Shown piece after piece: positions 33,814 to 60,385 of a stretch of DNA of 64,000 nt. This DNA comes from Gigantopelta aegis (taxonomy: Eukaryota; Mollusca; Gastropoda; Neomphalida; Peltospiridae), in contig NC_054704.1 in NCBI RefSeq assembly GCF_016097555.1, positions 91,930,502 through 91,994,501 on the forward strand, given 5' to 3'. Under the pieces are notes generated by a model that saw nothing but the letters and a program-made list of their open reading frames with translations, did not search any database and had not been told where the DNA came from. Position 1 is the stretch's first letter, and the number at the start of each line of letters is the position of its first letter. A program made the position numbers and the translations under genes.

Positions 33814-36800
33814 TTATAACTCTGGTTTGGTGGACTGGACGAACCGATAAACTGCTTTGAAAGTTTTATGCTTTAGGCATTTATCCGGGTTTAGTAGAAA
33901 GTTAGGCGTTATATGTTTATTATGGTTACCATCGGTGATTGATTTTAACATTAGTTGTCTCTGGGTGGTATGTAGCGTGCAATCCAGGAGATAGTGTTTC
34001 ATATCTTCCCGGGTGCCACAATCACATTCTGGATTTAATTTGGTAAAGGAGCAGCTGTTTAGTTTTGACGATTGTCCTAGGCGTAGTTTGGTGATTAGCT
34101 TATCCACATACGTGTTTTTGTGTTTAGGTCTTATAGAGTTAACTAGAGGCTTGATGTTATAGTGCCATGTGTTTTTAGTTAGGTCCCAGCTAGCTTGCCA
34201 TTGGTTTATGTAGTGTTTTTTTGCTTTTGACATGAGCTCTGTTATTCCTAAGGGTAGTGTGGTAATTGTGCTGGTAATTGCGAGTGCTGTTTTTGCTCCA
34301 TAGTCGGCTACTTCGTTACCAATTATTCCTACGTGGGCTGGGACCCATTCGAAAACTACTGTTAATTTAAGTTGGTTTAGCTCGTTAAGTACTTTGTGGA
34401 TGGCTGCTAAGATGTCAGGCCTAGTAGATTTGTTAGTTTGTAGAGATTGGATTGAGCTAAGGCTATCAGAGAAGATGACGCTTTTAGGGTATTGTTTACT
34501 TTTAATCCAGATTAGTGCTTCGTAGATGGCTGTCAGTTCTGCTGTGTAGACTGATAAGTTGTCTGACAGCCTGGCGTATTTAACGAGTTTAGCGTGTTTG
34601 GATATCTTTTCTTCCACTACTGCGAAGCCAACCCTGCCATTGTCCGGGTTTTTTTGATCCATCTGTGTAGACGTGGATGTGCTCTGGGTAGTTTTCATTG
34701 GCTGCTGCTTCAAACAGGACTTTTTTAAAGGGCGGAAACGGTGTTTCGTCTGTGGCTTTTTTAATTAGGTATGGAGTGTGGCATTCCATAGGTTGATTAA
34801 TGTTATATAGAGCTACTGGTGTGTTATCAATTCCGACTTCTATTTCAAGTTTACTGGCCCTGGTGGCAAATGAGTCGTTAAGCTTTTTATTTTTATTAAA
34901 TTCTAGCCCTGGTTTAGCAATTATAGGGGTAAGTTCCTGAACTGGGTGGTCTAATTTAAGCGAGTGGATTTTTAGGTGGTATTTGAGATGTTGTAAGTTG
35001 CGGCGATATTTAAGTGGCATGATGTTAAATTCTACCTCGAGGCTTTGGCCGCTAGTGTTACGTGGGACTTTGGCTATTGTTCGTAAGGCTTGGTTTTGTA
35101 TGATATCTAATTTTTGTAGCAGTTTGGGGTCGGCGCAGCTGTAGGCTTGGGCTCCGTAGTCTATCCTGGAGAGGATACATGCTTTGTAAACCATAAGCAT
35201 TGCTTCCGTTTGCGCACCCCAACTGGTGCCTGAGATTGCCCGTAGTAAGTTTAGCGTGTTTTTAGACTGTTTGATTACATTATTTATATGGTCGCTAAAG
35301 GTTAGTTTTGAGTCGAATGTTACTCCCAGGAATTTAAAGGTTTTGACCCTTGGGATTGGTTTGTTATTTGAGGTTATTTGGTGATTATCGGATGAGTTGA
35401 CCTTATGGAATAGCATGCAGACTGTTTTAGTTTCTGATAGTTTTATGCCCCAGTCCTGGGCCCATTTATTGAGTTTATTCATGTCGTTCTGCATGAGGCT
35501 AAATAGTTGTTTGGTTACTCTGCCTGTGCGCCAAATGGCGCAGTCGTCGGCGAAGAGGGCTGTATTTAGGGGAGTGGTTGATTTAATTTTACTCTTGGCG
35601 TTGAGCGCTTTGGTTATGTCATTGATAAAGATGTTGAACAAGGTTGGTGATAGGACTGAACCTTGTGGGATACCGTTAATTATTTCAGTTTTTTGAGAGT
35701 AGTGTCCGTTTACTCTAACAGATATTGATCGGTTGTGAATAAAATTATTAATGAAGTTGAACATATTGCCCTTTATACCGTTAGTTTTTAGTTTATTGAG
35801 TAGTCCCTGTCGCCATACCATATCAAATGCTTTTTCAATATCTATAAAAATTGCTAGTACTTTATTGGACTTGCGGAAGGCGTCATTTATGCTATTTTGT
35901 AGTCGAACTATCTGGTCAATTGTTGAGTGTTTAGTTCTGAATCCGCTTTGTACGTTAGTAATTAGCTTATTCTCTAGGAGGTAGTTATTTAGTCGCTTAT
36001 TGATAATGGTTTCTAAGGTTTTGCATAAGTGCGACGTGAGTGTTATTGGTCTATAGCTACCCGGGAGCGAGTGGTCCTTGCCCGCCTTTGGGAGGCTAAA
36101 GCACTCCGCGTGTTTCCACGCTGCGGGCATGCGACCCCCCTCCCAGATCCTGTTATAGAGCGACAACACTACTTCAAGGGTTACATCTGGCATATGTTTT
36201 AGCAGCGTGTAGCTGATTTGGTCTGGCCCTGTGGCGGTGCTTTTTTTTAGATTTAATGGCTGCTTTTAGTTCAACTAGTGTTAGTGGTTGATTAAATTCT
36301 AGGTTGTCTGTATTAGGCTGAGTATCACTCTTAGTATTATTTGTTGGGAGGTTGTTATCTTTCTTAAGTTTGTTAAAGAATATTTCAGGGAAGTTTTCGT
36401 TGCTGCTGTTTTTACTAAATGTTTGACTGAGGAGGTCTGCCTTTTGTTTATTTGTGGTGGCTAATTTATTTTTTTGGAGGACTGTAGTGAACGTGCGTTG
36501 TCCTTGGATGGCATGAACCTTCTTCCACATTTCCCTAATAGAGGTTCTGTTGTTGATATCCCCGCAGAATGTCTGCCAGCTAGCCTGTTTAGCTTCCGTG
36601 ATTAGTTTACCTATTTCTTGTTTAGCTATTTTATATTTAGTGTGGTATTCTGGTTTACCCGTTTTCTTAAAGAGTTTTCGCATCCTATTTCTGAAGCTAC
36701 ATTTTGCTTGAATTACGTCTGTCCACCAACTGACAGGTGAATTTTTTGTGGGTTGTTTGGTTTTAGGTATATTTTTTTCAGCTATTTGGATTATTTCGTT

Positions 36801-37718
36801 GGTGATTTTAGTGGTTGCATCGTCGATATCTATGTTAGGTAGTAGTTTAAGTTTGCTGCAGTCGCTTGTAAAGCCTGCCCAGTTGGCTTTACTAAATTTG
36901 AATTTTGGTAGGAATTTTTGTTGTTCAGTATAGGCTATATTACTTTTATAGGTAGTTAGTATGGGTAGGTGGTCGCTATTTAGAGCATCTAGTACCTCCC
37001 ATTGGGCGTTTGCTCCTATGGTGTTAGAGGTTATGGTTAGGTCGATGGCAGAGGAGGCTGCTAGATGGTCGTGAAAGTAGGTGGGGCTGCCATCGTTGAG
37101 ACATACTAGGTTGTTTATATTAATGAAGTTTTCGAGTATGTCACCCTGTGTGTCTGAGTGCTGGCCTCCCCATAGTGGGCTATGGCTGTTGAAGTCTCCT
37201 ACTAGGATTAGATTACTATTTGGCTTAATAAGTTTATTGTAGTCGTTTATGGTTAGTTTTTTGAGGGCCGCTCCTGGTGGGCTATAGACATTGATGACGT
37301 CTATAGGCATTTTTTTATTTAGTACCGTAAGTCCTAGGACTTCCAGATTGGTATTTAAGGCATCGGTTTTAATTTCGCTGTGTGGGATGGTATTTTTAAT
37401 GAGCGTGGCTAGGCCACCTCTAGTGCTATTCTCACGGTGTTTATAGTAGGTTGTATAGCCTGGTATTTTAAATTGTTTAGTTGTTATTTTGTTATTATTA
37501 TTTTTATTATTATTTTTATTTTTTTTGGGCCCAGCCCCTAACCAGGTTTCCTGGATGCATATTATGTCCGGCTTGTTGTTATTGGTGCTGACGAGTTGAA
37601 TGAGTTCAGCACCATGTCCCATTGAGTGGAGGCCTTTAGCGTTCCACTGGAGAACACTAAGGCCTTTATTGTCTAGTTTATCATTAATTTTTACGGTGTG
37701 TGGAGACTTGTCTCCCAT
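33814..37718 (-). pseudogene. LINE ORF2: endonuclease, reverse transcriptase and RNase H, two frameshifts
   Basis: The endonuclease part (37718-36174) shows SVLQWNAKG, CIQETWLG, VYSPPGA, LVGDFNSHSPLWG, SAIDLTITS and LNSDHLPI. The RT (36193-34589) shows PGSYRPITLTS, IDIEKAFDMVW, GIPQGSVLSPTLF and LFADDCAIW. RNase H (34713-33814) shows YTDGS, YTAELTAIYEAL, SDSLSSI and WVPAHVGIIGNEVADYGAK, then CDCGTREDMKHYLLDC. The three parts lie in three frames. Each break coincides with an A homopolymer in the coding strand (8 A near 36243, 7 A near 34655); removing one A in each would restore a single frame of roughly 1,300 codons. No other stop was noticed. Confidence 0.88.
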
Positions 37719-37764
37719 TGTCTGTCCTGGAGTTAGGTTTATCTATTTAGGCAGTGTTTGAATT

Positions 37765-39996
37765 TTACTTAGTTGACTGGTTTAGGTTATTTTTGAGCTC
37801 GGCTACCTCTTGCGCTAGTTTTTCTAAAATTTTGGTTAGTTCACTAATTTGGCAGTTTTCTTTGTTTTTGACCATTTCGGCGTAAGAGATGGTTGCCGAA
37901 ATTGGTTTAGATTTAAAGGTTGTCTGACTTATCTGGTTTATTTGGTTGGATTGGGTTTTTTTTGAGTTATTGAGCTGCCGCATCGCTCTTTGGAAGTGGT
38001 GACAGCGGTTATCATGGGCCATGTGCCGGCTGAGGCAGTTAGGGCACTGGATGGGTCGTGTACATGGGGAGTTTAGGGAGCTTCTGGGGTGTCTTTGGCC
38101 ACATCTGTGGCATGTTGGCATCTCTCGGTGGTGTCTGCATTTGTTAGCTCCGTGGCCCCATTGTTGGCAGTGATGGCATTTAGATGGTTTAATTTCATAC
38201 TCTTGTAATTTATGCCTGCGACCTGAGATAGAAATCGAGTTATCTGTGGTAACATCTGCCGTGATTAGTAAATAGCCGTTGGTCCAAATGGTAATGTTAT
38301 CTATATTAAGTTGGGGGTTTCCAGCCTGGAGTGCTGTTTTAGTCGTTTCCTGGGGGGGGGGGGGGGGGAGGGGGTGGAGTTTAACTAACCATTTGTTAAT
38401 GGGTTTGGTTGGTTGGCTGCTTGGAGGGATGGCTCGGGTCGTGGGTGGTGGGATATCGGGTGACGACCGGGTAGGGGTGGGGGCATGGGGGGTTGGGGTG
38501 GGGTTTAGGTTACGGCTTGGGGTGGGAGTTAGGGATGGCAGGGTATCAGTGCTGGTGGTATTTTGGGTTAGGCTAACGGTAGGGGTGGGGGTTGGAGGGG
38601 GGGGAGGTGGTGGTTGGGTTAGTGTGGGGGGTGGGTACTGTGGTAGGGGTGGGTGCTGGGGTGAAGGAGGGTGGGGGGGTGGCCGTTGAGAAGGAGATTG
38701 AGAGTAGGGGGGGGATAGGTTTGGAGGTAGAGGTAATCTCTTTGGTATGGGATTTACTGGTTATCCTTTTTCCGTTTTTGGTGGTCTTATCACTATGTTG
38801 GGTGGGTATTATTTTTTTGTTTTTTAGGAAGTTTATACTTTTGGCCGGGGTTCGTTTTGCGTTCCTGTCGTTTGTGGCCTTGGTTGGTGGGTATCGTTGG
38901 TGTGCTCTGGTGGTTTGGGTGGGTCTCATTTGGGGCCGGCTGCCTGCAGCGGTTTTGTTGGTTGTTATACTGACTTTTTTTGTTTTTGCGTTTGCGAGAG
39001 TGGCGGACGCGGTTACTTCGGTGGGGTCCGCTCTCGTTGTTGGGTTGACCGTTTGTGAACTAGAGAAATCTAACTTTTTTTGACAGGTTTTGGGTGTGTT
39101 TCCTACCGTTAGGTGTTTTTGGATTATTGTGTGAAGTTTTTTACTCTCGGTGCTGCTTTGGCTGGTCTCCAGGGTGGGTGTTGTCACTTTATGTTGGGTT
39201 ATTTCCTTGCTTACTGTTTTTAATTCTATGTTATCTTTATCCCCGGTTTGTGGGTTCATCTTTAGCCTGATTAGTGGCCCCAGTGCTTCTAACGTTGTTT
39301 CTTCTCCTTTGATGTACGTCGTCCCATTTGTTAGCTGGGTGTGGTAGAAAGCTTGGAGGGGATTGGTTGTAGTTTTGTTGAGAAAGTGTTGCCAGTACAC
39401 GTATTGGTATGGGCTGGGGTTAGCTCCGTTTATGAGGACTTGCCTTATTCCTTTAATGTTATCAGTCTGTTTTGTTATTTTAGCTTTTTTATGGCTTCTG
39501 CCAGGGGTGGAAAGGGCATCGAATTTATTTCGAGTGGTTACATCTGGGTGGATATCATGGCTGTCCATCTCGTCGTCCTGGTCGCTGTCTGAGAATAGGT
39601 TGGCCTCTTGGCTAAGATTGAGGGATCCTAGCCGTTTTACTGCGCTCCTAGGAGTCGCGGGGGTGGGGCGACAGGTAGATTTTTGGGCCAGATTGAGCGC
39701 CAGCTCGTTTGATTTATGGTTTGGGTTGAGGCTGACAAATTCAGTGTCTGGGTTTATTGCCTTGTCGATTATGTTTTTTCTGGTTTTCTTGGAGGTGGCG
39801 GGTTTATTGGGCTTACTGGGTTTGGGGGGTGGGGTAGGAGATTTCGGGGAGGTGGCTGGCTTACTGGGTTTAGGAGTTGGTTTAGGCGATGTTGTTGGGG
39901 GGGGGGGGATGGTTCCTTATCGTCCTGCGTTGACACATGGATTTCTTCCTCTGTTCTCTCGGGCGTGGCTTCACTGCTCTGTTTTGGGTCTACCAT
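37765..39996 (-). pseudogene. LINE ORF1, gag-like with zinc knuckles, frameshifted
   Basis: Fragments are 39996-39769 (Pro-rich), 39568-38573 (MDSHDIHPDV through a Thr/Pro-rich tail) and a frame ending at 37765. The last contains three knuckles in a row, CHHCQQWGHGANKC, CHRCGQRHPRSSLNSPC and CPNCLSRHMAHDNRC, and a Leu-rich C-terminal helix. A G/C run at 38351-38369 separates the parts. Such proteins bind the element's RNA. Frameshifts sit in or next to homopolymer and Pro-rich tracts. Confidence 0.75.
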
Positions 39997-45612: not shown

Positions 45613-45919
45613 TTAATAATAATGAATTCACAAATCACAACTGACAATAACAATTTGTTGACCAAAAATCCACATAATAAATAAAATAAATATGTTTAAT
45701 TATTGTTCTGTTCATTATTTTATTTTTATTTTTTATTTAAAATTATTTCTCGCGCGGTTCCGTTTACATCAACTTTTAATGAATGACATTGCTGAATCGG
45801 TGAATGACATTTGTAGTAAAAGTTGTGGGATGTTACTGACCTTGACATTAATTATGAATGAAAAAAAAAAGTCCCAATATGCTAATAAGGTCGCTGTCCA
45901 GCCAATCGAAATTGACTCT

Positions 45920-46421
45920 GTTAGTAGGTATGGCACTTGAGCCTCAAAATATGTAAATGAGGTGGCGTGACCTGACGTGGCCTCTTCTGATTGGCTGACC
46001 TCTAAGCGTAGGATGTGACATCACGGGGACGCTAACCTTGACCTACTTCGAGTACATAGACCTCTGAGTTAATAACTTGGGCAGCTGTGGGATGGGCGTG
46101 GGAACCTGACCTCCGTGTCAGGAAACACCGGATGTCGGTAAAATGTGTGTTAACCGTCGTGGGTCCTTTGATGTTCAGGAAACAGATGACGAGGAAGTCG
46201 TTAATGACCCATATAATGGTTTCGAATGATGGGGGGTTTATCTGACTATGACAACTGTTCCTTTGATGTTCAGGAAACAGATGGCGAGGAAATCATTAAT
46301 GGCTATCAGATGGCAAGATAGCGTGGGTTTTACGAGTGTGTTAACTGACGGGGGTCTATACAGGAAACAGATGGGGCGGAAGTCGTTAATCAGATGGCAA
46401 GATGGGTTTAATCGTTTTGAC

Positions 46422-46470
<49 letters not shown>

Positions 46471-46630
46471 CCAGATGCGAGCCTTGGCAACGGGGAGTGG
46501 AAAATTCCAAAGCGTTTGAAACGTACCCATATATGGTCATGGCGTAGGAACACCATGAGTCATCCCAGAACGTGTTCAGACACGTCTTGACCTCGATATA
46601 GCGTGGGGACGCTATGGATGGCGTGGGGTG
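45920..46630 (+). repeat. Left long terminal inverted repeat of the virus-like element
   Basis: It aligns with the reverse complement of 57090-57692 from GGCACTTGAGCCTCAAAATA to the GTGGGGACGCTATGG region. Inside, CAGGAAACAGATGNCGAGGA occurs three times (near 46179, 46272 and 46361) and a (GT)n run lies at 46425-46468. Confidence 0.85.
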
Positions 46631-46670
46631 TAACGTCATGCCCTAGACATGGCTGTACCCCACATTATGA

Positions 46671-46910
46671 TCGGCCTCATTGGTGTAGTGGTTATGACTG
46701 GTAGGTACTGGGTTCGTATCCGGGTATCAACTGGTATTCAGACGTTTCACTAACCACTACCTCCCACTGTTCTGGACAGGTAGTCCCACAGTTTAAGTGT
46801 GCGCGTGCGTGTGTCCAGGATAGCGTGCTTAAACCTTAATGGATTATTGGATTAGTGTTAGACCGGATACTCTCAACCGTGATAACCGTGTGTGTGTGTG
46901 TGCCCAGGAT
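46671..46910 (+). mobile_element. Type 3 SINE, degenerate
   Basis: GGCCTCATTGGTGTAGTGGT, box B GGTTCGTATCCGGG, the CACTAACCACTACC segment, GTTCTGGACAGGTAG and CAGGATAGCGTGCTTAAACC follow the order of the copy at 9767. Confidence 0.7.
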
Positions 46911-46984
46911 AGCGTGATTGGATAGAGACAGAGGTACGGAAAATAAATATAAACAAACAGTGTTCCTTGGTTGGAAACTTTATT

Positions 46985-47239
46985 TCACAAAGAAAACATT
47001 AGCCAGTTGCCACAGAGGCTATCAGATGTGTAGCTAGGTCTTAAAATACAGACTATATGAAAGAATGTTATATCGTCTGCTAAATACGTTAATGAAGAAC
47101 ACATGGTGTCGCAAGTGAGTACGGCTCTCTTGTGAAGTACGTCGGGTGATGGAAATATGATATCCTGAGCCAACAGATGTCGAAGCAAACTATAAGTTTC
47201 AAAGAAAGAAAGCGGGGGAGAAGGGAATGTGCGTAACAT
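46985..47239 (-). CDS. Small hypothetical ORF inside the virus-like element
   Basis: 84 codons on the minus strand, ending close to an AATAAA-like signal (TTTATTT on the plus strand at 46979-46985). The product has no family I recognise. It is oriented like the genes on the right of the element and lies just inside the left repeat. It may be chance. Confidence 0.22.
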   Translation of the reverse strand: MLRTFPSPPLSFFETYSLLRHLLAQDIIFPSPDVLHKRAVLTCDTMCSSLTYLADDITFFHIVCILRPSYTSDSLCGNWLMFSL

Positions 47240-47574
47240 GCCAGCCCATTACTTTAAAAGAGGAAATGATTAAAATAAAAGAAATGTGTGTTAAGGGGAA
47301 GAAAGGAATGTGCGTCTTACTGAACACATCTCTTTGATGTACGTTTTTTATGCGAACGTCTGTCGCGCGCACGCTGAGGGTGTTTATTTATATCATTGGG
47401 CAATCTGGCATGTTTAACTTTGATCTGGTGTGGAAACTGGCTGAAAACAAAAACAGATATCTGTGGTTCCCCAAGACCATTGGTTTGTTTTGCCCCTCTA
47501 ACGGTTAAAGACAGAGAGAGAGAAACGATATGCCAAACGTGCTTAATCCATTAACTCGGCGAAAGGCAGACTAT

Positions 47575-48562
47575 AGTACTGTCGGAAATAGAATAAAAAT
47601 GATTTTCGTCGATTATTTCTTACATATTAAACTGACAAGTAAATATTTTGTAAATATCTACTTAATGATAGTCTACCTAATTTAGCATTTACTTGTTTGG
47701 GCGCTTATTGATGTTGAAGGTGGTGTTTACTCTTGAAATTAAAAGAAAATGTCAGTAAACAGGTGCTTTGTATATTTTAATGGAACAGACTATAAAAATA
47801 TTTGGTCAGCGTGTCAATTTCATTGCTGTTACAATATGTGATGGACTGTTTCTGATGATGGTTTGCCCCTATCCCTCTACAAAACAAAACATTTGTAGTC
47901 ATTTATAAGTACTTTTGAGCAAAACTGTGAAGAGCCATTATGAATGATCCATTATACCGGTATTAAAGGCGCTATCTCAATGTTGCCCAATGACAGCTAT
48001 TGCAAATTATTATATTTTTTTATATAAAATTTTGATTTAACATTTAAAGAACACCTTTAACAATATGCCCATAAATGATTATAGGAAATAATGTTATCTA
48101 CTGGTAGAAAATACATTTTTATTGGAGAATCTTTATCACAACTCGCATTATATAGCACCTTTAAATTGTTGCAAGATTGTGTAAATTTCTAATGTACTTA
48201 CATTGAATTTATATTCAATAAATATGCTTGTCATAATTAATCATTTATGCTGCAATTCAAAATAATCAGTTAACTTTCAGTTTTAAATTAAAAGTTTGTT
48301 TAAGGGTAAATGAAATTGACACATATCGATCAAAATGTGTTATAGTTTGTTCCAACAAAGGTCACAAATCACCCGTTTACTGACATCTTTAGTTTAATTT
48401 CAAGAGTAAACACAACCTTGTACATCAATGAGAGCCCAAACAAGTAAATGCTAAATTAAGTAAAGTATCATTGAATGGATATTTACAAAATATTTACTTG
48501 TCAGTTTAATATGAAAGAATAAAATCGACGAAAATAATTTTTATTCCATTTCCGACAGTACT
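47575..48562. mobile_element. 988-bp element with ~190-bp terminal inverted repeats
   Basis: The ends AGTACTGTCGGAAATAGAAT and ATTCCATTTCCGACAGTACT are inverted, and similarity extends about 190 bp inward on each side, including TTACTTGTTTGGGC / GCCCAAACAAGTAA and TTTACTCTTGAAATTAAA / TTTAATTTCAAGAGTAAA. The centre has no coding capacity. Superfamily unknown. Confidence 0.85.
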
Positions 48563-49072
48563 TTAGCAGACAACACTCGCCGTGCTGTGCCAAGAGCTTA
48601 ACAAGTAACACGTGTCGATCAAAGGGAAATAACTGCATTTTAAAACGTGTTCGCACTACGACTCCAAGAGTTTTTCCCCTTTACCATATACGTTTAAGTC
48701 TATATATACTACTGAAAAGAAGTTAAGGGTCAAAGGAACATTTTGATCATTTTTGGAAGTATGTTTTTTTTACGCCAGATATGGTTAGAATATTAACCTT
48801 TGTGTTGTCATTTGGACTAAAGACAACACATTATTAAGGGGCATGCAATCATTGCCCTTATCTTTAGAAACGTTTTAAGTTAACCCAGATTTCCTTTTCA
48901 TGTATTTGAAGCAAAAACATAGTCAGACTTAACTGACAACCTGCCTCGATACACCCATTGTGACACCCCGTGCACCATTTGCACGTGCTTAGCATGAGTG
49001 TAATTCAATGCATGCCAATTTTAGTAATAAAAGGATGAGCATTTTCCTTTCATCATCACTTTAAATTTGTAG
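48563..49072. other. Probable left flank of the first Tc1 element
   Basis: No ORF. It may include the left inverted repeat of the Tc1 element, but I could not find a matching right end. Confidence 0.35.
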
Positions 49073-50088
49073 ATGGTTCGACGACAACTCAGTTTGCAAG
49101 ACAGGGGAAGGGCCATTAGCTGACTACAAGATGGACACACTCAAAGATCTGTGGCTCACCGTCTAAATGTAAGCCAAAGTGTTATCGGTAGACTGGCAGA
49201 GGTTCAGGACGACTAATTTTATTCAAAATCGCTCCCGTTATGGAAGACCACGATCAATAACAGCACGAGAAGACCGTTTCCTGATGATAACGGCGTTGCG
49301 ACAGCGTTTTGTGACCGCACGGCGTCTTCGTGATCAACTCAGAGCTGCTACAGGCAACAATGTGTCCGACCAGACCATTAGGAATCGTCTGCGAGACCAA
49401 GGTTTGCGATGTCGGCGTTCTGTAGTCCGACCACAGCTACTTGCTGGTCACAGAAGGGCTCACCTTGATTGGTGCATATCCGGTGGAACCGTGGGCAATG
49501 GGCAGAGACATATTCACAGATGAGTCACGGTACTTGCTCCAGTTCAATAATGGCCGGGCTCGTGTTTACCGTCGTCAAGGAGAAAGATTTACTGATGTTA
49601 ACGTTGTTCAACATCTACCATTTGGAGGAGAAAGTGTAATGGTGTGGGTGGGCATATCCATGAATCACAGAACCCCTCTGTACATCATTAATGGAAATTT
49701 GTCTGGTCAGCGTTATCTCAACGAGATTGTTCAACCTTTTGTAATTCCACTTCTGCAGCGGATTGGACCAGGAGCTTGGTTCCAGGACGACAACGCAATA
49801 CCTCATCGTGCCAGGGTGGTGACCGACTTCCTGCAGCAGCAGAACGTTCAGCACATGGATTGGCCTGCATATTCACCAGACTTGTAACCCATTGAGTATG
49901 CGTGGGATGAACTAGGGCGGCGCGTTCGATCATATCACGTCCCTGCCGTCAACCTCCAGCAACTGGCTCAGCAATTAGTTGCAGAATGGCAAGCGATTCC
50001 TCAACGTTATTTCCAACGCCTGGTTAACAGCATACGCCAACGTTGTCAAGAATGTGTGAATGCCATTGGTGGCTACACCAGTTACTGA
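49073..50088 (+). pseudogene. Tc1-like transposase, copy 1, broken
   Basis: The start MVRRQLSLQDRGRAIS is followed by TGA at 49121. Two frameshifts (near 49200 and 49490) link a helix-turn-helix part (GRPRSITAREDRF, VSDQTIRNRLRDQG) to a DDE part (IFTDESRY, GGESVMVWVGIS, FQDDNAIPHRAR, WPAYSPDL-stop-PIEYAWDELGRR). The in-frame stop at 49885 replaces the residue usually Asn in SPDLNPIE. By my count 34 residues separate the second Asp from the Glu, the classical Tc1 spacing. It ends GGYTSY at 50088. Confidence 0.85.
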
Positions 50089-50271
50089 CGCTTCTACTAC
50101 ATGTGTGAACATCATTTTTGGGGGTGCATGACTTTCTCCATCTGGGTAGTAAACTAGTGTCCAAGCAAAGGTTTTTTGTTTTGTGTTTTCTGTTCTTGAG
50201 ACATCAAATAAATAATTTGTCATTAGTCGTCACAAATGACTATTATTTTTATTATTATTGTTATTATAATA

Positions 50272-51767
50272 TACTCTTCAAAAGAAGAAACGCAAAACCA
50301 CATTGTCGTAACATTTGGAGAATTGATTTAATTATTGAATGGTGAGACCGATAATTACCAAATGTTGCAGGATTGTTCACAATTCACTCTAGTCCATTAT
50401 GAGTAAGTGATAGGACACACCACCAAGGTCAAGGTCATCTGGAGTCAATACCGGGTGTGGCCTCCGCGTGTGTTGACAACTGCCTGGCACCGCCTGCCCA
50501 TTGAAGCAACCAGAGTACGGATGACGTCCCGGGGGATGGTGGCCCACTCGGCCTGCAAGGCTGCTGCCAGCTCGGGCAGGGTCTGGGGCTGTGGTTGTCG
50601 CTGTCGGAGGCGTCGGTCCAACTCGTCCCATAGATGCTCAATTGGGTTCAAATCCGGTGATATCGATGGCCAAGGAAGGACATTAATGTTGTTCTGTAGG
50701 AAAGCCGTTGTGAGACGTGCTGTGTGAGGCCTGGCGTTGTCATGTTGGAACACTGCGTTGGCGTTGGCCATAACTGGAACGATGTGTGGCCGGAGGATCT
50801 AGTCAATGTAGCCCTGTGCATTCAGGTTGCCCTGCACGTGGACCAGGTCAGTTCTGCCAGTGTGTGAGATGGCTGCCCACACCATGACACTACCCCCGCC
50901 GAATCTGTCCACTTTCTGCACGCAGTTTTCTGCATAACGTTCACCACGACGCCTATACACGCGACATCTTCCATCATGACGTCGGAGCAGAAATCAGGAC
51001 TCGTCACTGAACCACACCTGTCTCCATCGCAGTTGAGGCCATTGTCGATGAATCTGGCACCACTGCAGTCGGAGTCGACGGCGTTGTGGTGTTAAGATGA
51101 CACCTCGAACTGGACGTCTGGCACGAATTCCTACCTCACGTAGGCGGTTCCGTACGGTCTGGTCGGATATCCTGCGCAAACCTGGTATTGCTGCGGCTGT
51201 GGAGGTGGCAGTAGTCAATCGTTCCCGAAGGTGGCGTACCCGGATGTAGCGGTCCTGCCCGGGGGTAGTGACCCGTGGTCGACCGGATCTAGGGAGGTCA
51301 CGTGTTGATCCATGTTGCTGGTAACGGTCCCACAGTCTGGAGATGGTGCTTGGGGACACATGGAATGCCCTGGCAACGGCCGTTCTGGATTCGCCTGCGT
51401 CTAGTCGGCCGATGGCATTGTTTCTCTGCGGTTCACTGAGACGTGGCATGTCCTGGATTGTCAACTGTCGGCCAGATACAGAGGCCAGGCAAGCGAACAC
51501 CCTGCACTTTTATACTGTCGGTGTTCATGTTGCACGTGCAGACAACGCACGTGCAGTGGTGACATGGTTTGCACGTGGCTGCGTTTTTGCGAATATTCAC
51601 ATTTTGGAAATTTATTGTACAGTAGCTGCGTTTTATCGAATGTAACCGTGGGAATGTGTTTGGGACATGCAATGACCTTATATTCACAAAGCATGAACCG
51701 GTAGGAAACATAAAATCGGAGTTATAACCCATTTGTACCCTTTTGCGTTTCTTTTTTTTTTAGAGTA
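50272..51767 (-). mobile_element. Tc1/mariner element, copy 2, with inverted ends and TA target
   Basis: The ends TACTCTTCAAAAGAAGAAAC and TTTGCGTTTCTTTTTTTTTTAGAGTA are inverted, with TA on each side (50270-50271, 51768-51769). The element is about 1.5 kb and contains one minus-strand transposase. Confidence 0.87.
50445..51449 (-). pseudogene. Tc1-like transposase, copy 2, two in-frame stops
   Basis: From ATG at 51449 (MPRLSEPQRNNAIG) to GGHTRY and the stop at 50445 there is one frame of 334 codons with no frameshift but two stops, TGA at 50994-50996 (after VWFSDES) and TAG at 50799-50801. Domains: two helix-turn-helix units (VSPSTISRLWDRY, ISDQTVRNRLRE) with the linker GRPRVTT, then DDE residues in FSDES, FQHDNARPHTA and SPDLNPIEHLWDEL. 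I count 33 residues between the last two. It was probably active not long ago. Confidence 0.9.
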
Positions 51768-53227
51768 TATATATATATGTATATGTATATATAATATGTC
51801 ACGTCAAGAGTGACCAAGGGCTCTTAATCACACAATTTCCCAACAGAAAACAAAAACAAATAATTTTACATTTGTATTTCACCAAGAATCAATAAATAAT
51901 TATTAATCTTAATATTTAGTGGTGGTTTATAAACAATTCACTGGAAATAAGGTAATACTGTTCATATATAATAACACCCAGGCACCAAGCACCAGTAAAT
52001 TATCAGTCTCTGGAATAGAGAACCCTTTCAAATATGTGTAACCAAGTCCAGGTCAAGTTCATCGACAGTGTTGCTTTGTACTTGCAACCCTCGACTCGCC
52101 GTCACTCTGTTCCATAAATAAGGCCATTTATAGTGTCGGTCAACGGTGACACCAGAAGCTGCTGGTAACCATTATCACCCCAACTTAATAAATCCGACCG
52201 TCACTCTTCCACTATCAACGAGGCCATCGGTATCAGTCCCCACGGTGACGCAACAAGCTGCTGGTAACCCATCATCACCCCAGCTCACAATAATACACCC
52301 GACCTGACAATAAAAACACGGTAAATAATACAATTGCCATGATTACACCATAATAAAGTAACTAAACCTTGATTTACAGGATTTTGGCATATAACCTGGT
52401 TTCCACAAAAAAATATCTATTTCCAGTACTTTTCATTGGCCATTTATTAGTGCAACCTATTTACAAAACACTACGGCCAATTCTTATTTAATACACTATG
52501 TCCATTAAATATACATGTACAAAGTTGTCAACTATTAAAATTACATTATACAACCATTTTTACTTTAACCAGTGTTAACAATTATTACTATAAGTATACA
52601 TACAATATTTACTGCCAAACTATACAATTTCCTAACAAATTACCGCCTTTTCCTTAATATACAAGTTAAAATAAAATACTTACAAACATAATGCAACTCC
52701 AAGTATAATATAATATAAACAGACATATAACAAAACCCTACTTACCCCAGCTGTTCACAGGAAACCTCTCTAGTTCCAAAACGTGACACGTGTCCACACA
52801 CCATGTATCACTGCCCGTGCACCATGTGCATCACAGCTCTGGGTTCCCCCAACAATAGCCCTGACCAGCACTTTTAACCAAGTGTCAACGAAAATGGACT
52901 AGTCCACAATCACGCTGTGCCACTGCAGACCAAACCATTGCAAGTGCTAGGGTATTTGACTGCACGTGTGAAAAGGTACCATATGACAACTGCGAGTAAT
53001 AGGCTAAATAAAATATTCAAATAATCTACACAACCAATACTCCACAACTTATGTACAATAAAATACGGTTGTGACATAATATAATAATAATAATAATAAT
53101 ATATTGCGATAAGTCCATGTTATATATTTTTAGAATATTTATAGATCAAGGAAATAACTGCACAGAGTACTTCTCTAGACCACTAGCCCTGACCGTTTAC
53201 TATAAATTTTACCAAATGGGTAAATAC
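51768..53227. other. AT-rich interior of the virus-like element, no gene seen
   Basis: There is a short internal repeat (AGGCCATCGGTATCAGTC..., CACGGTGACRC) near 52130-52290. No ORF or motif supports a gene. Confidence 0.4.
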
Positions 53228-53345
53228 AGTGGTCGATCTAGGATCGATCCCCGTCGGTGGTTCAATAGGCTATATCCAACCAGTGCCACTGGTATGTCAA
53301 GGGCCGTGGTATGTGCTGTCCTGTGCACACATCCCTTGCTACAAA
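53228..53345 (+). mobile_element. Degenerate type 2 SINE fragment
   Basis: GTGGTCGATCTAGGATCGAT, CCAACCAGTGCCACTGGTAT, GGCCGTGGTATGTGCTGTCC and CATCCCTTGCTACAAATT keep the family order. It runs into a minisatellite. Confidence 0.7.
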
Positions 53346-53357
53346 TTACAAATTGCA

Positions 53358-53653
53358 AACTACACATATATAAAGTGGACACATATTGGGTTACATCGAT
53401 AGGCCTTAAGGGCGACAACTACACATATATATAAAATGGACACACATTGGGTTACATCGAGAGGCCTTAAGGGCGACAACTACACATATATAAAATGGAC
53501 CCACATTGGGTTACATCGAGAGGCCTTAAGGGCGACAACTACACATATATAAAATGGACACACATTGGGTTACATCGAGAGGCCTTAAGGGCGACAACTA
53601 CACATATAAACTGGACACACATTGGGTTACATCGTGAGGCCCTAAGGGGCGAC
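53358..53653 (+). repeat. 59-bp minisatellite, five units
   Basis: Units start at 53358, 53417, 53478, 53537 and 53596, with lengths 59, 61, 59, 59 and 58. Each contains AACTACACATATA, GGGTTACATCG and CCTTAAGGGCGAC. It lies where the SINE's 3' part should be. Confidence 0.92.
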
Positions 53654-53672
53654 ATGTGAATAATATTAGTGT

Positions 53673-54147
53673 TCATTTCTCTTCATCTTCGTCCTCATCA
53701 TCAGTATCATCACCATCGGTATCGTCGTCGTCTAGTTCGTCCAAATATTCGCTGATCCAGGAACGATACTGATTTAATTTAGAACGAATCTGAGGTCTCC
53801 GATCTCTTTTTGGATTGACTGACTTTAGAATTTTTCTCGTGTTGGGACCTTTGTCAAAGTAATGCATATAGGTCAGGAAGCGAGAGTACATGTCTTTAAA
53901 TAACTTCCATTGTAAAGTCTTCATGTTTCTTTCGATGGTATCTTGGGACATGTTTTTTTTCTTCGTAGCGTTTCCTCTTGCTTTCGATATAGTCATGATT
54001 GATGTCGAATTCACGCTCGATCATCAGACGTACGCCTTCGTTTACCAGATCGGACGACGGCTCGTCTTCTTCATTTCCCTCCTCGCACGTTTTAAATCGC
54101 AGTTGTCGCTGCAAGTCACTCCCGTCTTTAAAGACTAGACCACGCAT
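53673..54147 (-). pseudogene. Acidic-tailed hypothetical protein of the virus-like element, frameshifted
   Basis: The ATG at 54147 (MRGLVFKDGS) lies about 10 nt after the ATPase stop. The first frame ends at 53896; the remainder lies in another frame (from about 53950 to 53673), with a helical basic part and a C-terminal tail of mostly Asp and Glu (ELDDDDTDGDDTDDEDEDEE). Similar acidic tails occur on DNA-mimic or virion proteins, but no family is recognised. Tight spacing to the ATPase suggests co-transcription. Confidence 0.5.
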
Positions 54148-54156
54148 ATCGCAAGA

Positions 54157-54942
54157 CTACATCCTCTTGACTTTTTTCAGATAGGGCTGTACCTCATCTT
54201 CTTCTTCTTCGTCGTCACTTTCGTAGGCGGGTATGCCTGGTAGTTTTCTCTTGAATGTGTTTCTTTGCATGATGTGCACGTAGAGCTCTTTCTCCGACGG
54301 TGGTTGAAACTCTTCTGAGACATTCGCCGTTACGTTCGTGCATTTATACCATTCGGACGGCCCCGTCTCTAAACCATTAGGTCGAAGGCGTCAATGTTCG
54401 GGCGTGGTCGTTTCAAATCCACCAAGAGATGTCAGTAGGGCCTGTGGGTAGCTTCCTCAAACCGTTGCATCAAATGACGAGGTTAGGACTTGTTGCTTGT
54501 CGCTGGGGTTGTTGAACAGTGCCAAGTAATGACAGTTTCTTCTTTGTGTCGGGTCCTTGCTGTTATAGAGATTTCTGTGGTGACTTCCTTCCGTGAACAG
54601 ATCGGTGATGCGAGGGTCTTTTCCAGCTGTAGACATGAGGTCATCCAACACGATGAAATTTCTGACTCTGGGATCCAAATAACGATTCTTTTCCAAATTC
54701 TCGGGTATTCCTTGAAGAAATTTCACTCGAGCAACCATTTTGATCGTATCATAGAGAGGTTGCCATTGTTAGTAGAGCCAAATGATGCGTTAAGGAGGCT
54801 GGTAGATTTTACCATCCCTTAGCAGTTTGTACAACAAAAATATTTTTCCACACGACGTGGGTCCCGACACGATCATGGTGAACGGATGTAACAATCTTGG
54901 GGGCTGCTGCTGCTGCTGGAAAGGCTTATCTTCAGATTCCAT
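54157..54942 (-). pseudogene. Packaging-type P-loop ATPase of the virus-like element, broken
   Basis: The ATG at 54942 (MESEDKPF) is followed by a Gln run and the Walker A region VSGPTSCGKI, where the usual Ser or Thr after Lys is Ile. A stop comes soon after (RDGKIYQPP). The next frame (54738-54457) carries the Walker B-like FIVLDDLMS and TEGSHHRNL, then DPTQRRNCHYLALFNN; about eight codons normally present after HHRNL appear deleted. A third frame carries the remainder to a basic end, KKVKRM, at 54157. This resembles the FtsK/A32-type genome-packaging ATPases of Maverick/Polinton and adintovirus-like elements, which drive DNA into capsids. Several lesions make this copy dead. Confidence 0.72.
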
Positions 54943-55021
54943 GAGTCCATGTTTATTTCGTACGTGTCGAGTTAGGTCGTCGGTTCAAACATTTTTTTTC
55001 TCTCGCAAATGTGACACTGAT

Positions 55022-55444
55022 TCATGATGTTGACTGTTGAAGTGTTCGATGTGAACTGGCGATGTTGAAACGGCCACGTCCCCTTTTATAGTCTTCACAG
55101 AAATGCTTGCGCCGTTTTTGACTCATTCCAGTCTGCTCACGTCGTTTCTGTTCCACGCCGCTCTGTTCTCGTTTCCATTTCTGCTCGGCCTTGGCTTGCT
55201 CTACCACCTGTTGCGTGGGCGATACCATGACGACTTTGGGTGCCGAGCGCTTGCTCTGTTCCTCTTTTTCTTTTGTCCACGTGGGTTCGTAGAGTTCTAG
55301 ACATCGATCCACACTATACAACATCTGACTTTTCCCACCACGCTGCACTGGAAAATGAGGTTGAAGTTTGCCTTGGGCTTGCAACTTGTAAAAGCGGGTC
55401 CACTTGTCCACGTCGGGAACGTACAACTTGTACTGGTCTGACAT
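55022..55444 (-). CDS. Basic hypothetical protein of the virus-like element
   Basis: 140 codons from MSDQYKLYVPDVDKW to the stop at 55022. The N-terminal half is mixed; the C-terminal half is very rich in Lys, Arg, Gln and Glu (WKREQSGVEQKRREQ) and likely helical, ending in a basic GRGRF stretch. No family recognised. A TATAAATA box lies about 53 nt upstream of the ATG, and AATAAA lies about 65 nt downstream of the stop (54952-54957 on the plus strand). It is the least damaged gene of the cluster. A virion or DNA-binding role is only a guess. Confidence 0.6.
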   Translation of the reverse strand: MSDQYKLYVPDVDKWTRFYKLQAQGKLQPHFPVQRGGKSQMLYSVDRCLELYEPTWTKEKEEQSKRSAPKVVMVSPTQQVVEQAKAEQKWKREQSGVEQKRREQTGMSQKRRKHFCEDYKRGRGRFNIASSHRTLQQSTS

Positions 55445-55496
55445 GTTACTTCTCTGAAGGTTCTACTTCAAATGACGATGTTACCCACTGCCCCTT

Positions 55497-55504
55497 TATT
55501 TATA
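55497..55504 (-). promoter_or_regulatory. TATA box of the basic-protein gene
   Basis: TATAAATA on the minus strand in a GC-richer setting (GGGTATAAATAAAGGGG), about 53 nt upstream of the ATG at 55444. Confidence 0.6.
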
Positions 55505-55659
55505 CCCTCTACAATTTCGCGCATGCGCACAAAGATGTAGTTTGAATTTTGTGTGGTACGTATGACCCATCGTGCACGGCTCAGGGCTACTCTTGGGCCA
55601 CACTAAGGGCCACACTAAGGGCCACACTCAGAGTCACACTCAGAACCACACACAGGTCC

Positions 55660-55709
55660 ACACAAAGTCCACACACACACACACAGGTCCACACAAAGTC
55701 CACACACAC

Positions 55710-55744
<35 letters not shown>
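55660..55744. repeat. (CA)n tract with CACAAAGTCCACAC repeats
   Basis: Two blocks of CA dinucleotides separated by AGGTCCACACAAAGTCC; preceded by four AAGGGCCACACT-like repeats from about 55595. Confidence 0.9.
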
Positions 55745-55747
<3 letters not shown>

Positions 55748-55823
55748 CACCATTACATTAATAACAAACAAAAAGTGTTATTCACATGTTTATTTTATAA
55801 AACGAAAAGTAGCACACACGTGT

Positions 55824-56357
55824 TTAATGTCTGAACACGTTGTTAATGTAGTCACATCTCGGGGACAGCCTGTAATGTTCCATCACTGGATCGTCCATCT
55901 TCTTCCATCCGTAGGCCAGTAGTCCTACAACAGTAACAGACGACGGCATCGTGGTCTCCCGTGTAGAAGAAACCGGCCTTGACGAGTTCTTTCAGTCTCT
56001 GACTCATCTGGAGGGGCCACCAACCAAATGTGGACGATGGCAGAACAAGTAATGTCTCGAAAGGCCATCCCATTCGTCATCGGCGTCGTAGGCATCATCA
56101 TCGTAGGGAGCCGAGTCCATTTTATATTCTGGATCTATGGGTTCTTCGTCCACGATTTCGACGGGTTCATGGGTATCCGTGGGTTCTTCATCCACGATTT
56201 CACCGGGTTCACGTGCAGCGTCCGTTTGATCCATGAAATGTTCTTCTGGTTTGCATTTGATCGTATGTCTTTTGGAACATTTGCATACCAAGACATCGTC
56301 ACCGCTGCTACAACTGCTGTTACTGCTGCTGTCCATTCTCGAATATCCCGATGCCAT
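55824..56357 (-). pseudogene. BIR-domain (IAP-type) protein of the virus-like element, frameshifted
   Basis: The ATG at 56357 (MASGYSRMDSS) opens a Ser-rich and then acidic region with a repeated EIVDEEP motif. In the next frame comes a BIR-like core: FGWWPLQMSQRLKELVKAGF, FYTGDHDAVVCYCC. In the third frame follow YGWKKMDDPVMEHYRLSPRC and the stop at 55824. The Cys-x2-Cys, His and Cys zinc ligands are all recognisable in the BIR order, although spread over two frames. BIR proteins bind and block caspases or pro-apoptotic factors and are carried by several DNA viruses. AATAAA lies just downstream (near 55790). Two frameshifts (about 56060 and 55920) disable it. Confidence 0.72.
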
Positions 56358-56409
56358 CTTCACTCTACAACGGTCGACTGACGAATGACGAACAGTTCTA
56401 AATCTAATG

Positions 56410-56417
56410 TTTATATA
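56410..56417 (-). promoter_or_regulatory. TATA box of the BIR gene
   Basis: TATATAAA on the minus strand, about 53 nt upstream of the ATG at 56357, the same spacing as for the neighbouring basic-protein gene. Confidence 0.55.
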
Positions 56418-56488
56418 CACAATGTCTGAGCATGTCCAAACACGTCCTGGGTTTTTCCCGTGACGTCACCGAACATGTCTGGACACGT

Positions 56489-57055
56489 CTAATATCTCGG
56501 GTTGCATTCCGAACACTCTATGGCACCCGTCAGATTTTGATGATCTTGGTGGCACGGTATGACGTCTCTCAATTCAGGCACAAAGTCGTAGATAGTGTCA
56601 AAGCATTTCTGGAGCTCTTTCCACTGTTCAGCAGTCAGTCGAACGCCGCGACGGGAGATTTTCAATTCTTGATCACAATACCAGCACTGACGAATATCCA
56701 CGCCGGCATAACTACGTTTGACGTAGACGTTCCCACCGAGATGTTGTGATGTTTCCCGTTCGAAAGTGGCCAGTTCCAACAACTGTTTCATCGTCAGAGA
56801 AACGGCTTTCTTGGTGGGAAAATGTTTTCCATGGTCCTCGTCAAACTGACGAACGTGAATGGCAATGTCCCCCTTCCACACTTTAGACACGACGTAGACG
56901 TTACAGCCAAGGTCTAGTTTGCATCTCGTTTCGTTTTCTTCGTTTTTGACAAGACCCTCTGTAGTGTTTCTGTTATATCTCGATGCCATTTTATATGTAA
57001 TATTATATATCGTAAGTATCATCAACGGTATACGTCTTCTTTCTAGCAGTGTCAC
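56489..57055 (-). CDS. Two-copy PC4/Sub1-like protein of the virus-like element
   Basis: 188 codons from ATG 57055, or 166 from the better internal ATG at 56989 (MASRYNRN). Two similar halves follow the PC4 (transcription coactivator p15) pattern. The first has LGCNVYVVSKVWKGDIAIHV, RQF and PTKKAVSLT; the second has GGNVYVKRSYAGVDIRQCWY and SRRGVRLTAEQWKELQ. PC4-fold proteins bind single-stranded DNA and assist transcription or replication. A C-terminal CHQDH...CSEC might bind zinc. The frame is intact. The TATA-like sequence CCTATAAAAAAACC lies at 57085-57098, at the inner edge of the right terminal repeat. Confidence 0.68.
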   Translation of the reverse strand: MTLLERRRIPLMILTIYNITYKMASRYNRNTTEGLVKNEENETRCKLDLGCNVYVVSKVWKGDIAIHVRQFDEDHGKHFPTKKAVSLTMKQLLELATFERETSQHLGGNVYVKRSYAGVDIRQCWYCDQELKISRRGVRLTAEQWKELQKCFDTIYDFVPELRDVIPCHQDHQNLTGAIECSECNPRY

Positions 57056-57086
57056 TGGGCGAATGGCAAGCGCCCTGAATTTGGTT

Positions 57087-57094
57087 TTTTTATA
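57087..57094 (-). promoter_or_regulatory. TATA box of the PC4-like gene
   Basis: TATAAAAA on the minus strand, 32 nt upstream of ATG 57055 and about 98 nt upstream of ATG 56989. It borders the inverted repeat, so the first gene would be driven from the repeat edge. Confidence 0.5.
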
Positions 57095-57692
57095 GGCCCC
57101 ACGGTAGTGTCCCCACTATATCTCGAGGTCAAGACGTGTCTGAACACGTTCTGGGATGACTCATGGTGTTCCCACGCCATGACAGTATATGGGCACGTTT
57201 CAAACATCTTGGAATTTTCCACTCCCCGTTGACTCACATCTGGTTGACACACACGTCAAAATGATTAAACCCATCTTGCCATCTGATTAACTACTTCCGC
57301 CCTATCTGTTTCCTGTATAGACCCCCCCCCCCCCCCTCCCCTCCACCAGCTACCAAACCCATTAAACCCAGGCTATCTTGCCATCTGATAGTAATTAACG
57401 ACTTCCGCACCATCTGTTTCCTGTACATCAAAGGACCCACGACGGTTAACACACCTTACCAACATCCGGTGTTTCCTGACACAGAGGTCAGGTTCCCACG
57501 CCCATCCCACAGCTGTCCAAGTCATTAACTCAGAGGTCTATGTACTCGAAGTAGGTCACGGTTAGCGTCCCCGTGACATCACACCCCACGCTTAGAGGTC
57601 AGCCAATCAGAAGAGGCCACGCCCAGGTCACGTGACCTAGCTCATTTGCATATTTTGAGGCTCAAGTGTCATCCCTACTACTTCTGTTCCCT
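57090..57692 (-). repeat. Right long terminal inverted repeat of the virus-like element
   Basis: Reverse-complement match to 45920-46630. It contains a C run (57320-57337) where the left copy has other sequence, and two copies of the ATCTGTTTCCTGTA motif. Confidence 0.85.
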
Positions 57693-59353: not shown

Positions 59354-59491
59354 CATGCACGGTTCGACATGTCCCGTGTAGTATTCGGTCAATTTGTTTT
59401 ACTTGTCTTACTGACAATGTTGTCAAGTGAACGAAAACGCTTCAAAAATTGTAAAAAAAATTAACGTTTTTTACATTGTAGCATTTTTAGT

Positions 59492-60385
59492 ATGCCAAGA
59501 ATACCCAATAATTTACGCGAACGGGCGATTGGCATGCTTGATGCTGGCATGTCGACAGAAGACGTTGCAAGGCATGTTAGGAGTTCTAGTCGAGCGATAC
59601 GAAATCTTCGCGTAAGATTTCGAACGACAGGAAGCACAAACGACTTGCCACCTCGTGGACGTCCGCGTGTTACAACACGTGGTCAAGACCGCTATATTAT
59701 GAACACGCATTTGCGCAATCGATTCCAAACTGCCACTGCTACTGCTGCTAACACACCTGGGCTTCACAATAACCGAATCAGTGGGCAAACTGTTCGTAAT
59801 CGTCTGCATGAGAACGGTTTACATGCACGACGTCCTTACGTCGGATGCGTTTTAACGCAACGTAGACGTCTAAATCGTCTTAATTGGGCACGTGTACACA
59901 CTCGTTGGATATGGCGACGCTGGAATACCGTTCTTTTTTCGGATGAATGCCGATTTTCTTTACAACGTGGTGATGGCAGGGTGCGCGTCTACCGTTGGAG
60001 AAATGAACGCTATGCTGACTGTTGTGTTCTTGAACGAGATTGTTTCGGCGGTGGGGGTTCTGTCATGGTCTGGGCAGCCATTGCCCATGGTTATCGTTCA
60101 CCACTAGTCGTCATTGATGGCAATTTAAATGCTCAACGTTACCGCGATGACATTCTCGCTCATCACGTCATTCCTCTGTTCCATAACAACGCCAACATCT
60201 CGATTTTTCAGCATGATAATGCCACCTCTCATACAGCTAGAGACACTGTAAATTTTCTTAGGACAAATAACTTTGATTTCATTGATGACTGGCCCGCTAA
60301 AAGTCCTGATCTCAACCCCATCGAGCATGTCTGGGATAGTCTGGACAGACGATGTTTCCTGGGTCCGCCCTTGTGGTCATATTAG
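59492..60385 (+). pseudogene. Tc1-like transposase, copy 3, C-terminally truncated
   Basis: One unbroken frame of 297 codons from MPRIPNNLRERAIGML. It has two helix-turn-helix units around GRPRVTTRGQDRY, then LFSDECRFSL, GGGGSVMVWAAIAHG, FQHDNATSHTARD and WPAKSPDLNPIEHVWDSLDR. I count 35 residues between the last Asp and Glu. After LDRR the expected final ~45 residues, ending in GGHTRY-type sequence, are replaced by CFLGPPLWSY, so a 3' deletion removed the end. All three acidic residues are present. Terminal repeats were not found. It belongs to a different lineage from copies 1 and 2. Confidence 0.85.

Follow-up and report, generated by a model that had tools for sequence, protein, structure and literature searches.

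Does a short, virus-like gene cluster lying between two long inverted repeats represent the wreck of a larger element or a lineage of mobile elements in its own right? The question is raised by a 64,000-nucleotide stretch of the genome of the hydrothermal-vent snail Gigantopelta aegis (C6:91930502-91994501 of the 1,149,253,464-bp assembly; hereafter ‘the window’, whose positions serve as the coordinates of the element). A first-pass annotation of this stretch had described a pair of long inverted repeats, a run of small genes next to the right one and no visible polymerase, integrase or capsid gene, and had proposed a shortened relative of Maverick/Polinton elements. We find that the element is an old, pseudogenised member of a compact family present in high copy number in this genome; probably, it belongs to a non-autonomous Maverick (Polinton) lineage that was moved in trans.

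The boundaries of the element were established by self-comparison of the window, the check that the first-pass annotation had proposed. One long inverted-repeat pair brackets the gene cluster (45922-46614 with 57105-57680) and, read to the base, the element spans positions 45923-57682. The arms of the terminal inverted repeats (TIRs) are ~0.7 kb long and identical at 527 of 593 aligned bases (88.9%), differing chiefly in a GT run and in inner repeats. The left end carries a single AGT (AGTAGG) and the right end reads AGTAGTAGG, both of the AGT type that, like the TIRs themselves, characterizes Maverick/Polinton elements. An exact 6-bp target-site duplication (TSD) of the Maverick kind, TCTGTT, abuts both ends, an agreement found in only 7 of 20,000 random 6-mer pairs drawn from the window. 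This exact duplication at motif-defined ends rules out that the repeats are two unrelated dispersed repeats; the repeat pair noted at first sight is therefore borne out, and an element with TIRs, Maverick-type ends and a TSD is confirmed at this position. The outer 300 bp of its two TIRs differ by a Kimura two-parameter (K80) distance of 0.078, an indication that the element did not insert recently.

Four genes, all on the minus strand, adjoin the right TIR: a two-domain PC4 (p15) protein, a BIR protein, a small basic protein designated X, and a packaging ATPase of the A32/IVa2 type (Table 1). The first-pass annotation had counted five; the four just named stand, but its acidic-tailed protein corresponds, in other copies, to the C-terminal end of the ATPase open reading frame (ORF), as seen in locus L016, where the acidic part, C2H2 fingers and ATPase share a single ORF of 640 aa from stop to stop (zf-C2H2 6.5e-10). 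In the window copy, the ORFs of PC4 and X are open; the BIR gene is broken across two frames, and the ATPase frame contains in-frame stops and, by alignment, lacks a short in-frame stretch present in its homologs. In L012, the acidic N-terminus and BIR form one 217-aa ORF (Pfam BIR 2.8e-20). Pfam places the window’s own BIR (4e-10) and PC4 (2e-14) domains in their families, and the window’s ATPase pieces by themselves give Pfam matches below cut-off only. The ATPase is identified through the 279 homologs retrieved with its longest open piece, and four of the five homologs scanned pass the cut-off of Adeno_IVa2 or Pox_A32; the A32/IVa2-type ATPase of Mavericks is thus present, though broken.

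The compact gene set recurs across the genome. With 601 bp of the left TIR as query, 48 matching places emerged from 40 scored of 348 candidates, and protein X gave 1143 first-look candidates; all 150 that were scored match, at 78-100% identity, the candidates beyond these being unverified. Twenty of the 150 scored X loci, taken at intervals down the list, served as a sample of the family. Gene order (PC4-BIR-X-ATPase) and strand are kept in them wherever the genes are present: PC4 in 16, BIR in 19, the ATPase in 19, the acidic part in 15 and an integrase in two. Two ORFs of larger relatives described below, the protease and one of ~470 aa in capsid position, were found at none of the 20 by tblastn with the relatives’ ORFs. 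Seven of the 20 are complete insertions: each has AGTAGT...ACTACT ends and is flanked by an exact 6-bp duplication, no two of these being alike; when the left end of one locus was paired with the right end of another, 1 of 380 pairs agreed. The seven copies measure 6571, 5891, 7108, 6273, 5874, 7241 and 5674 bp and share one layout: TIR, two-domain PC4 (absent in one), BIR, X, C2H2-ATPase, a non-coding tail and TIR. An integrase occurs only in one of them, L020 (rve 2.3e-15, Chromo 2.5e-8), where it lies between BIR and X as it does in L021; the protease and capsid-position ORF occur in none. Three complete copies (L012, L014, L018) were scanned with Pfam on the opposite strand of the tail, the expected place of a family B DNA polymerase (PolB), without a match.

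Elsewhere in the sample, inverted repeats surround the cluster without the exact AGT/TSD signature (L010, L011, L013), are weaker or of another kind (L015, L021, L026), or were not found around the cluster (L009, L017, L023, L024, L025, L027, L028). L026 also contains a further partial, inverted PC4-BIR copy adjoining its compact cluster. The outer TIRs of the seven complete copies differ by K80 values of 0.012-0.125, and with the lowest of these at least one compact insertion may be young. As each of the seven complete copies has its own TSD, it is the compact gene set as such that was inserted, and more than once. The spacer between BIR and X is 95-99% identical within a group of six copies.

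The genes missing from the window copy were sought in two ways. The Pfam scan comprised 19 ORF pieces from the interior, six of which belong to transposases of the insertions, and one ORF beyond the element, complemented by 18 six-frame stretches, in which stops were written as the letter X, from 46640-47571, 48567-49172 and 51510-53357; the foldback and mariner stretches lie outside this six-frame set. In the interior ORFs and these stretches, none of PolB, rve integrase and adenovirus-type protease, all marks of Maverick/Polinton elements, was found. The integrase, U1, U2, capsid-position ORF and protease of the relatives, used as tblastn queries, have no match in the window. The absence of polymerase, integrase and capsid noted by the first-pass annotation therefore held within the reach of these searches.

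Relatives with more genes exist in the same genome. DNA_pol_B_2 was detected at 124 places in 91 scored of 211 candidates, several of them in frames of 1000-1600 aa. Eighty-five PolB places entered a distance test, further pieces of one locus having been excluded by hand: 7 of 150 BIR matches lie within 25 kb of a PolB place versus 0.55 expected (Poisson 2e-6), and in five of these seven PolB is 8.9-19.3 kb downstream on the opposite strand; for X, 3 of 150 matches lie within the same distance. The larger relatives were examined over 5 kb beside four of the five BIR matches with a downstream, opposite-strand PolB. L039 and L040 carry, in order, an integrase-chromodomain gene, U1, U2, X, an ORF of 471-473 aa and a protease-position ORF, which in L040 is a Peptidase_C5 above cut-off (1.2e-5). 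L042 has the integrase and X, together with a portion of U2 and the beginning of this long ORF. The more distant L041 has the integrase, U1, a 449-aa ORF 45% identical to that of L040, a protease (2.1e-7) and U2, as well as a stretch resembling the ATPase (32% and 4e-24 by tblastn; Pfam below cut-off only), with no X found by tblastn. The rve integrase is present in L020, L021, L037, L039, L040, L041 and L042, and is accompanied by a C-terminal Chromo domain in L020 and L040. X directly precedes the 471-473 aa ORF in L039, L040 and L042, and from its place the ORF of 449-473 aa is a putative capsid gene, homologs of which number zero in the window and the 20 X loci. A window-type TIR pair ~17.5 kb apart on C10 appeared to be a full-length partner and was set aside; its left end carries X and the ATPase directly, and one stretch of it is partly N. 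In the window copy, the genes said by the first-pass annotation to be missing were indeed not found, but their absence is not a one-off loss in one copy, because the compact set, which had struck that annotation as unusual, recurs as complete insertions. Nor does the set stand alone, because in relatives close to polymerase genes BIR or X is accompanied by integrase and protease.

Coding constraint was estimated among the six complete compact copies without integrase. The pooled ratio of non-synonymous to synonymous substitution rates (dN/dS) is 0.19 for X, 0.30 for the ATPase and 0.33 for BIR (15 pairs each), and 0.43 for PC4 (10 pairs, since one of the six copies is without PC4). Median values over 21-30 copies of all kinds are 0.20-0.29. 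Non-autonomous elements usually retain their ends only; a high-copy Maverick derivative with four coding genes at dN/dS well below 1, the ATPase included, invites a search for satellites in animals.

The recurrence of BIR in these elements bears on the host’s own gene catalogue, as mollusc genomes are known for swollen families of inhibitor of apoptosis proteins (IAPs). In G. aegis, BIR gave 759 candidates, and the 150 scored are all above cut-off, with many open frames of 180-230 aa. Linkage was assessed in 10 of these top-scoring matches over 2.8 kb each, a sample in which multi-exon host IAPs, with their lower exon-by-exon scores, are not represented. X, whole or partial, lies directly downstream of BIR in eight; the other two carry a stretch like the L020 integrase beside BIR (in L031 at 40% across 87 residues; in L037 at 94%, where it is downstream). 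All 10 sampled top-scoring BIR loci are thus linked to elements, and part of the IAP expansion may consist of viral or transposon genes miscounted as host immunity; the BIR-bearing family may be numerous enough to explain many of the snail’s apoptosis-inhibitor genes. An NCBI ‘putative inhibitor of apoptosis’ of G. aegis (P0006) is a gene model spanning BIR, X and the acidic part.

In other molluscs, two papers report that 51 of 159 hard-clam IAPs are intronless, with DNA transposons enriched around IAPs (PMC7831173), and that intronless IAPs number eight in Crassostrea virginica, those being without retroposition machinery, and three in C. gigas (PMC8917759). The expanded single-BIR intronless IAPs described there resemble those of G. 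aegis in being single-exon, bearing one BIR and being scattered over chromosomes, whereas the sampled G. aegis genes sit within or beside Maverick-type elements. Both papers ascribe the intronless genes to retroposition; origin as Maverick cargo is a possible alternative, which for the oysters would concern few genes. The same miscounting may hold for single-exon, two-domain PC4 genes: bay scallop has two such genes (PMC9223095), which may be similar cargo. Two further observations concern PC4. The start of P0016, a G. aegis NCBI model named ‘metal cation symporter ZIP14-like’, resembles the N-terminus of the element PC4 and may reflect a chimeric annotation or an element insertion. P0018, on a 1837-bp contig, fuses a CARD (9e-9) with a PC4-like region that shares the C-terminal motif, another tie between the element-type PC4 family and cell-death domains.

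How would such an element persist? The compact lineage probably derives from Mavericks that also bore integrase, capsid-position ORF, protease and polymerase. Its TIRs would be replicated by the protein-primed PolB of autonomous relatives in the same genome, whose integrase would insert the compact DNA and make the 6-bp duplication. The PC4 protein has homologs of 33-84% identity in Gigantopelta, Mytilus and other sources, most with the C-terminal Cys/His motif. A Foldseek search with its model (predicted local distance difference test, pLDDT, 68) found nothing at E <= 0.001; the top entries, trypanosome MRP1/MRP2 (0.0058), human PC4 (0.011-0.029) and two-repeat PURA (0.015), are all nucleic-acid binders. 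We infer that the two domains form a single-chain PC4 pseudo-dimer, which could coat displaced single strands during strand-displacement replication or aid late transcription. The BIR protein may block apoptosis and so delay cell death. X has no Pfam family above cut-off, and its low-confidence model (pLDDT 63) gave no match at E <= 0.001 in the fold search. Nothing informative came from searching X, PC4, A1 and A3 against IMG/VR, A3 against GTDB contigs, an ATPase homolog against phage records, from a PHROGs scan, or from searching the PDB by sequence with X, an ATPase piece and the capsid-position ORF.

Several observations weigh against a single compact lineage moved in trans. The compact copies show at least two different kinds of BIR-X spacer, so that compaction may have occurred more than once. 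None of the 40 listed window-type TIR matches lies within 20 kb of a PolB match, and no helper with the same ends emerges from them. Openness varies by gene among the seven complete copies: a best match that stays open across 90% or more of its query is seen in 7/7 for X, 4/7 for BIR, 4/7 for the ATPase and 3/7 for PC4, and the measured constraint may be partly inherited from autonomous ancestors. Supply in trans, finally, is proposed from the anatomy of the elements.

That the window holds a full-length Maverick whose other genes fell to local deletion, the compact set being nothing special, would agree with the decay of this copy, with the presence in the genome of relatives that have the missing genes and with the variety of BIR-X spacers. 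It is improbable, however, given that 7 of 20 loci hold the same short gene set, at 5.7-7.2 kb, each time between ends and duplications of its own, and that the spacers in the group of six copies are nearly identical (95-99%). Still less credible, to the point of near dismissal, is the amplification of a host IAP/PC4 family by ordinary duplication or retroposition. The annotation of P0006 and the retroposition invoked for clam and oyster IAPs (PMC7831173, PMC8917759) speak for it, but it conflicts with the TIRs, the AGT ends and the 6-bp duplications, with the packaging ATPase and integrase that lie alongside, and with the element linkage of all 10 sampled top-scoring BIR loci; for the sampled loci it is refuted. 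A host gene family with introns is ruled out by the intronless ORFs inside TSD-flanked elements.

A sharper version of the favored reading, which we consider tentative, is that the compact elements are satellites: X and the packaging ATPase would be kept to load the element’s own DNA into the capsids of autonomous Mavericks, and BIR would keep the cell alive meanwhile. The ATPase is found in 19 of 20 sampled copies versus none for the capsid-position ORF and protease, its dN/dS and that of X in complete compact copies (0.30 and 0.19) are low, and larger relatives are at hand in the same genome. Conversely, three of the seven complete copies have no ATPase match open across 90% of the query, the lack of PolB within 20 kb of the 40 window-type TIR matches counts here as well, and the ATPase may have been retained by chance or for another role. 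A broader form of the idea, that compact Mavericks are true satellites which, having lost polymerase, capsid, protease and mostly integrase but retained a selected packaging ATPase, X, an ssDNA-binding PC4 and an anti-apoptotic BIR, divert the replication, integration and capsids of their relatives, and are the main source of single-exon IAPs here and perhaps in other molluscs, is doubtful but worth stating. Taken with these alternatives, a compact non-autonomous Maverick lineage moved in trans, of which the window holds an old and pseudogenised copy, is the explanation that we favor.

The window copy spans 11.8 kb, but much of it consists of nested insertions by which this copy was later swollen. 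Five other copies were compared, and almost nothing in them matches the stretch at ~47.1-53.2 kb, which is mostly later inserted DNA. This stretch includes a foldback and two Tc1/mariner-like insertions, the second with its own short inverted ends (50269-50297 and 51741-51770). The non-coding tail common to other copies contains a 59-bp tandem repeat at 53358-53654 (Tandem Repeats Finder). All features of the element are collected in Table 1.

Table 1. Features of the compact element and its flanks, in window positions.
Feature	Position	Strand	Evidence or remark
Left target-site duplication, TCTGTT	45917-45922		Identical to 57683-57688
Left TIR, starts AGTAGG	45923-46614	+	Self-comparison and end alignment
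Foldback (inverted-repeat) insertion	47571-48566		Arms of 44 and 132 nucleotides, 93% and 89% complementary; 84.9% over 258 bp
Tc1/mariner-like transposase pieces (insertion)	49173-50088	+	Pfam HTH_Tnp_Tc3_2 4.5e-13; DDE_3 9.5e-5, below cut-off
Second Tc1/mariner-like insertion	50269-51770	-	Pfam DDE_3 1.4e-10, HTH_Tnp_Tc3_2 2.9e-10
Non-coding tail common to other copies	53203-53654		85-100% to stretches of L012, L013, L017, L023
Acidic C-terminal part of ATPase ORF, in two frames here	53673-54156	-	Present in 15/20 sampled copies
Packaging ATPase (A32/IVa2 type), in-frame stops and short deletion	54352-54984	-	279 homologs, alignment, tblastn frame -2
Remnant N-terminal C2H2 zinc finger of ATPase ORF	54985-55059	-	Halves in adjacent frames, by eye
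X, small basic protein, 140-aa ORF, open	55022-55444	-	6 database homologs; 150/150 scored genome loci match
Part of BIR domain, some two thirds of it in frame	55852-56076	-	Pfam BIR 4e-10, profile 3-45 of 70
Acidic N-terminal part of BIR gene, other frame	56004-56357	-	Single ORF with BIR in L012
Two-domain PC4 (p15) protein, C-terminal C/H/C/C motif, 177-aa ORF, open	56489-57022	-	Pfam PC4 2e-14, two stretches
Right TIR, starts AGTAGTAGG on the minus strand	57105-57682	-	Self-comparison and end alignment
Right target-site duplication, TCTGTT	57683-57688		Matches left duplication

Other mobile DNA lies in the window outside the element. Close by the element, a long Tc1/mariner transposase ORF occupies 59465-60385 on the plus strand (306 aa from stop to stop; Pfam DDE_3, HTH_Tnp_Tc3_2). 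On the minus strand, long ORFs at 33814-39916 look, by eye, like a non-LTR retrotransposon (zinc-knuckle ORF, endonuclease, reverse transcriptase, RNase H), and may account for the strong GC and AT skew at 34-40 kb. At 14284-18475 on the plus strand, successive ORFs resembling reverse transcriptase and tyrosine recombinase appear, also by eye, DIRS/Ngaro-like.

Comparison with known systems places the element close to Mavericks. According to PMC8097293, intact vertebrate Mavericks most commonly end in (AGT)2//(ACT)2, make 6-bp duplications, have TIRs of 46-1447 bp and measure 12.7-24.6 kb, and accessory genes flank their core modules. The window copy agrees in TIR length, AGT-type ends, 6-bp TSD and packaging ATPase, as the first-pass annotation’s reading of a shortened Maverick/Polinton relative would have it; its accessory genes are similarly disposed, and its relatives carry integrase and protease near PolB. 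It departs from Mavericks in that no PolB, integrase, protease or capsid-position gene was found in the window copy, and the seven compact copies, at 5.7-7.2 kb, fall short of the vertebrate range. With adintoviruses, as presented in PMC11071296, the relatives share an rve integrase with a C-terminal chromodomain, which tblastn did not find in the window element; unlike adintoviruses, defined by a PolB with an OTU-like domain and a hexon recognizable by BLASTP, this element yielded no PolB, and no search was aimed at hexon or an OTU domain. In the mostly open-access literature consulted, itself seen in part, we found no report of mollusc Mavericks with BIR or PC4 genes as cargo, nor of compact, capsid-less Mavericks, and the pairing of BIR with a two-domain PC4 was not found in the adintovirus or related papers searched.

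A second comparison is with phage satellites. Satellites such as phage-inducible chromosomal islands (PICIs) are short mobile elements that keep a packaging function without a capsid of their own. The compact elements resemble PICIs in both respects, and differ from them in their animal host and in the A32/IVa2 type of their ATPase. If they do prove to be satellites, they would be an animal counterpart of the capsid-hijacking satellites of phages.

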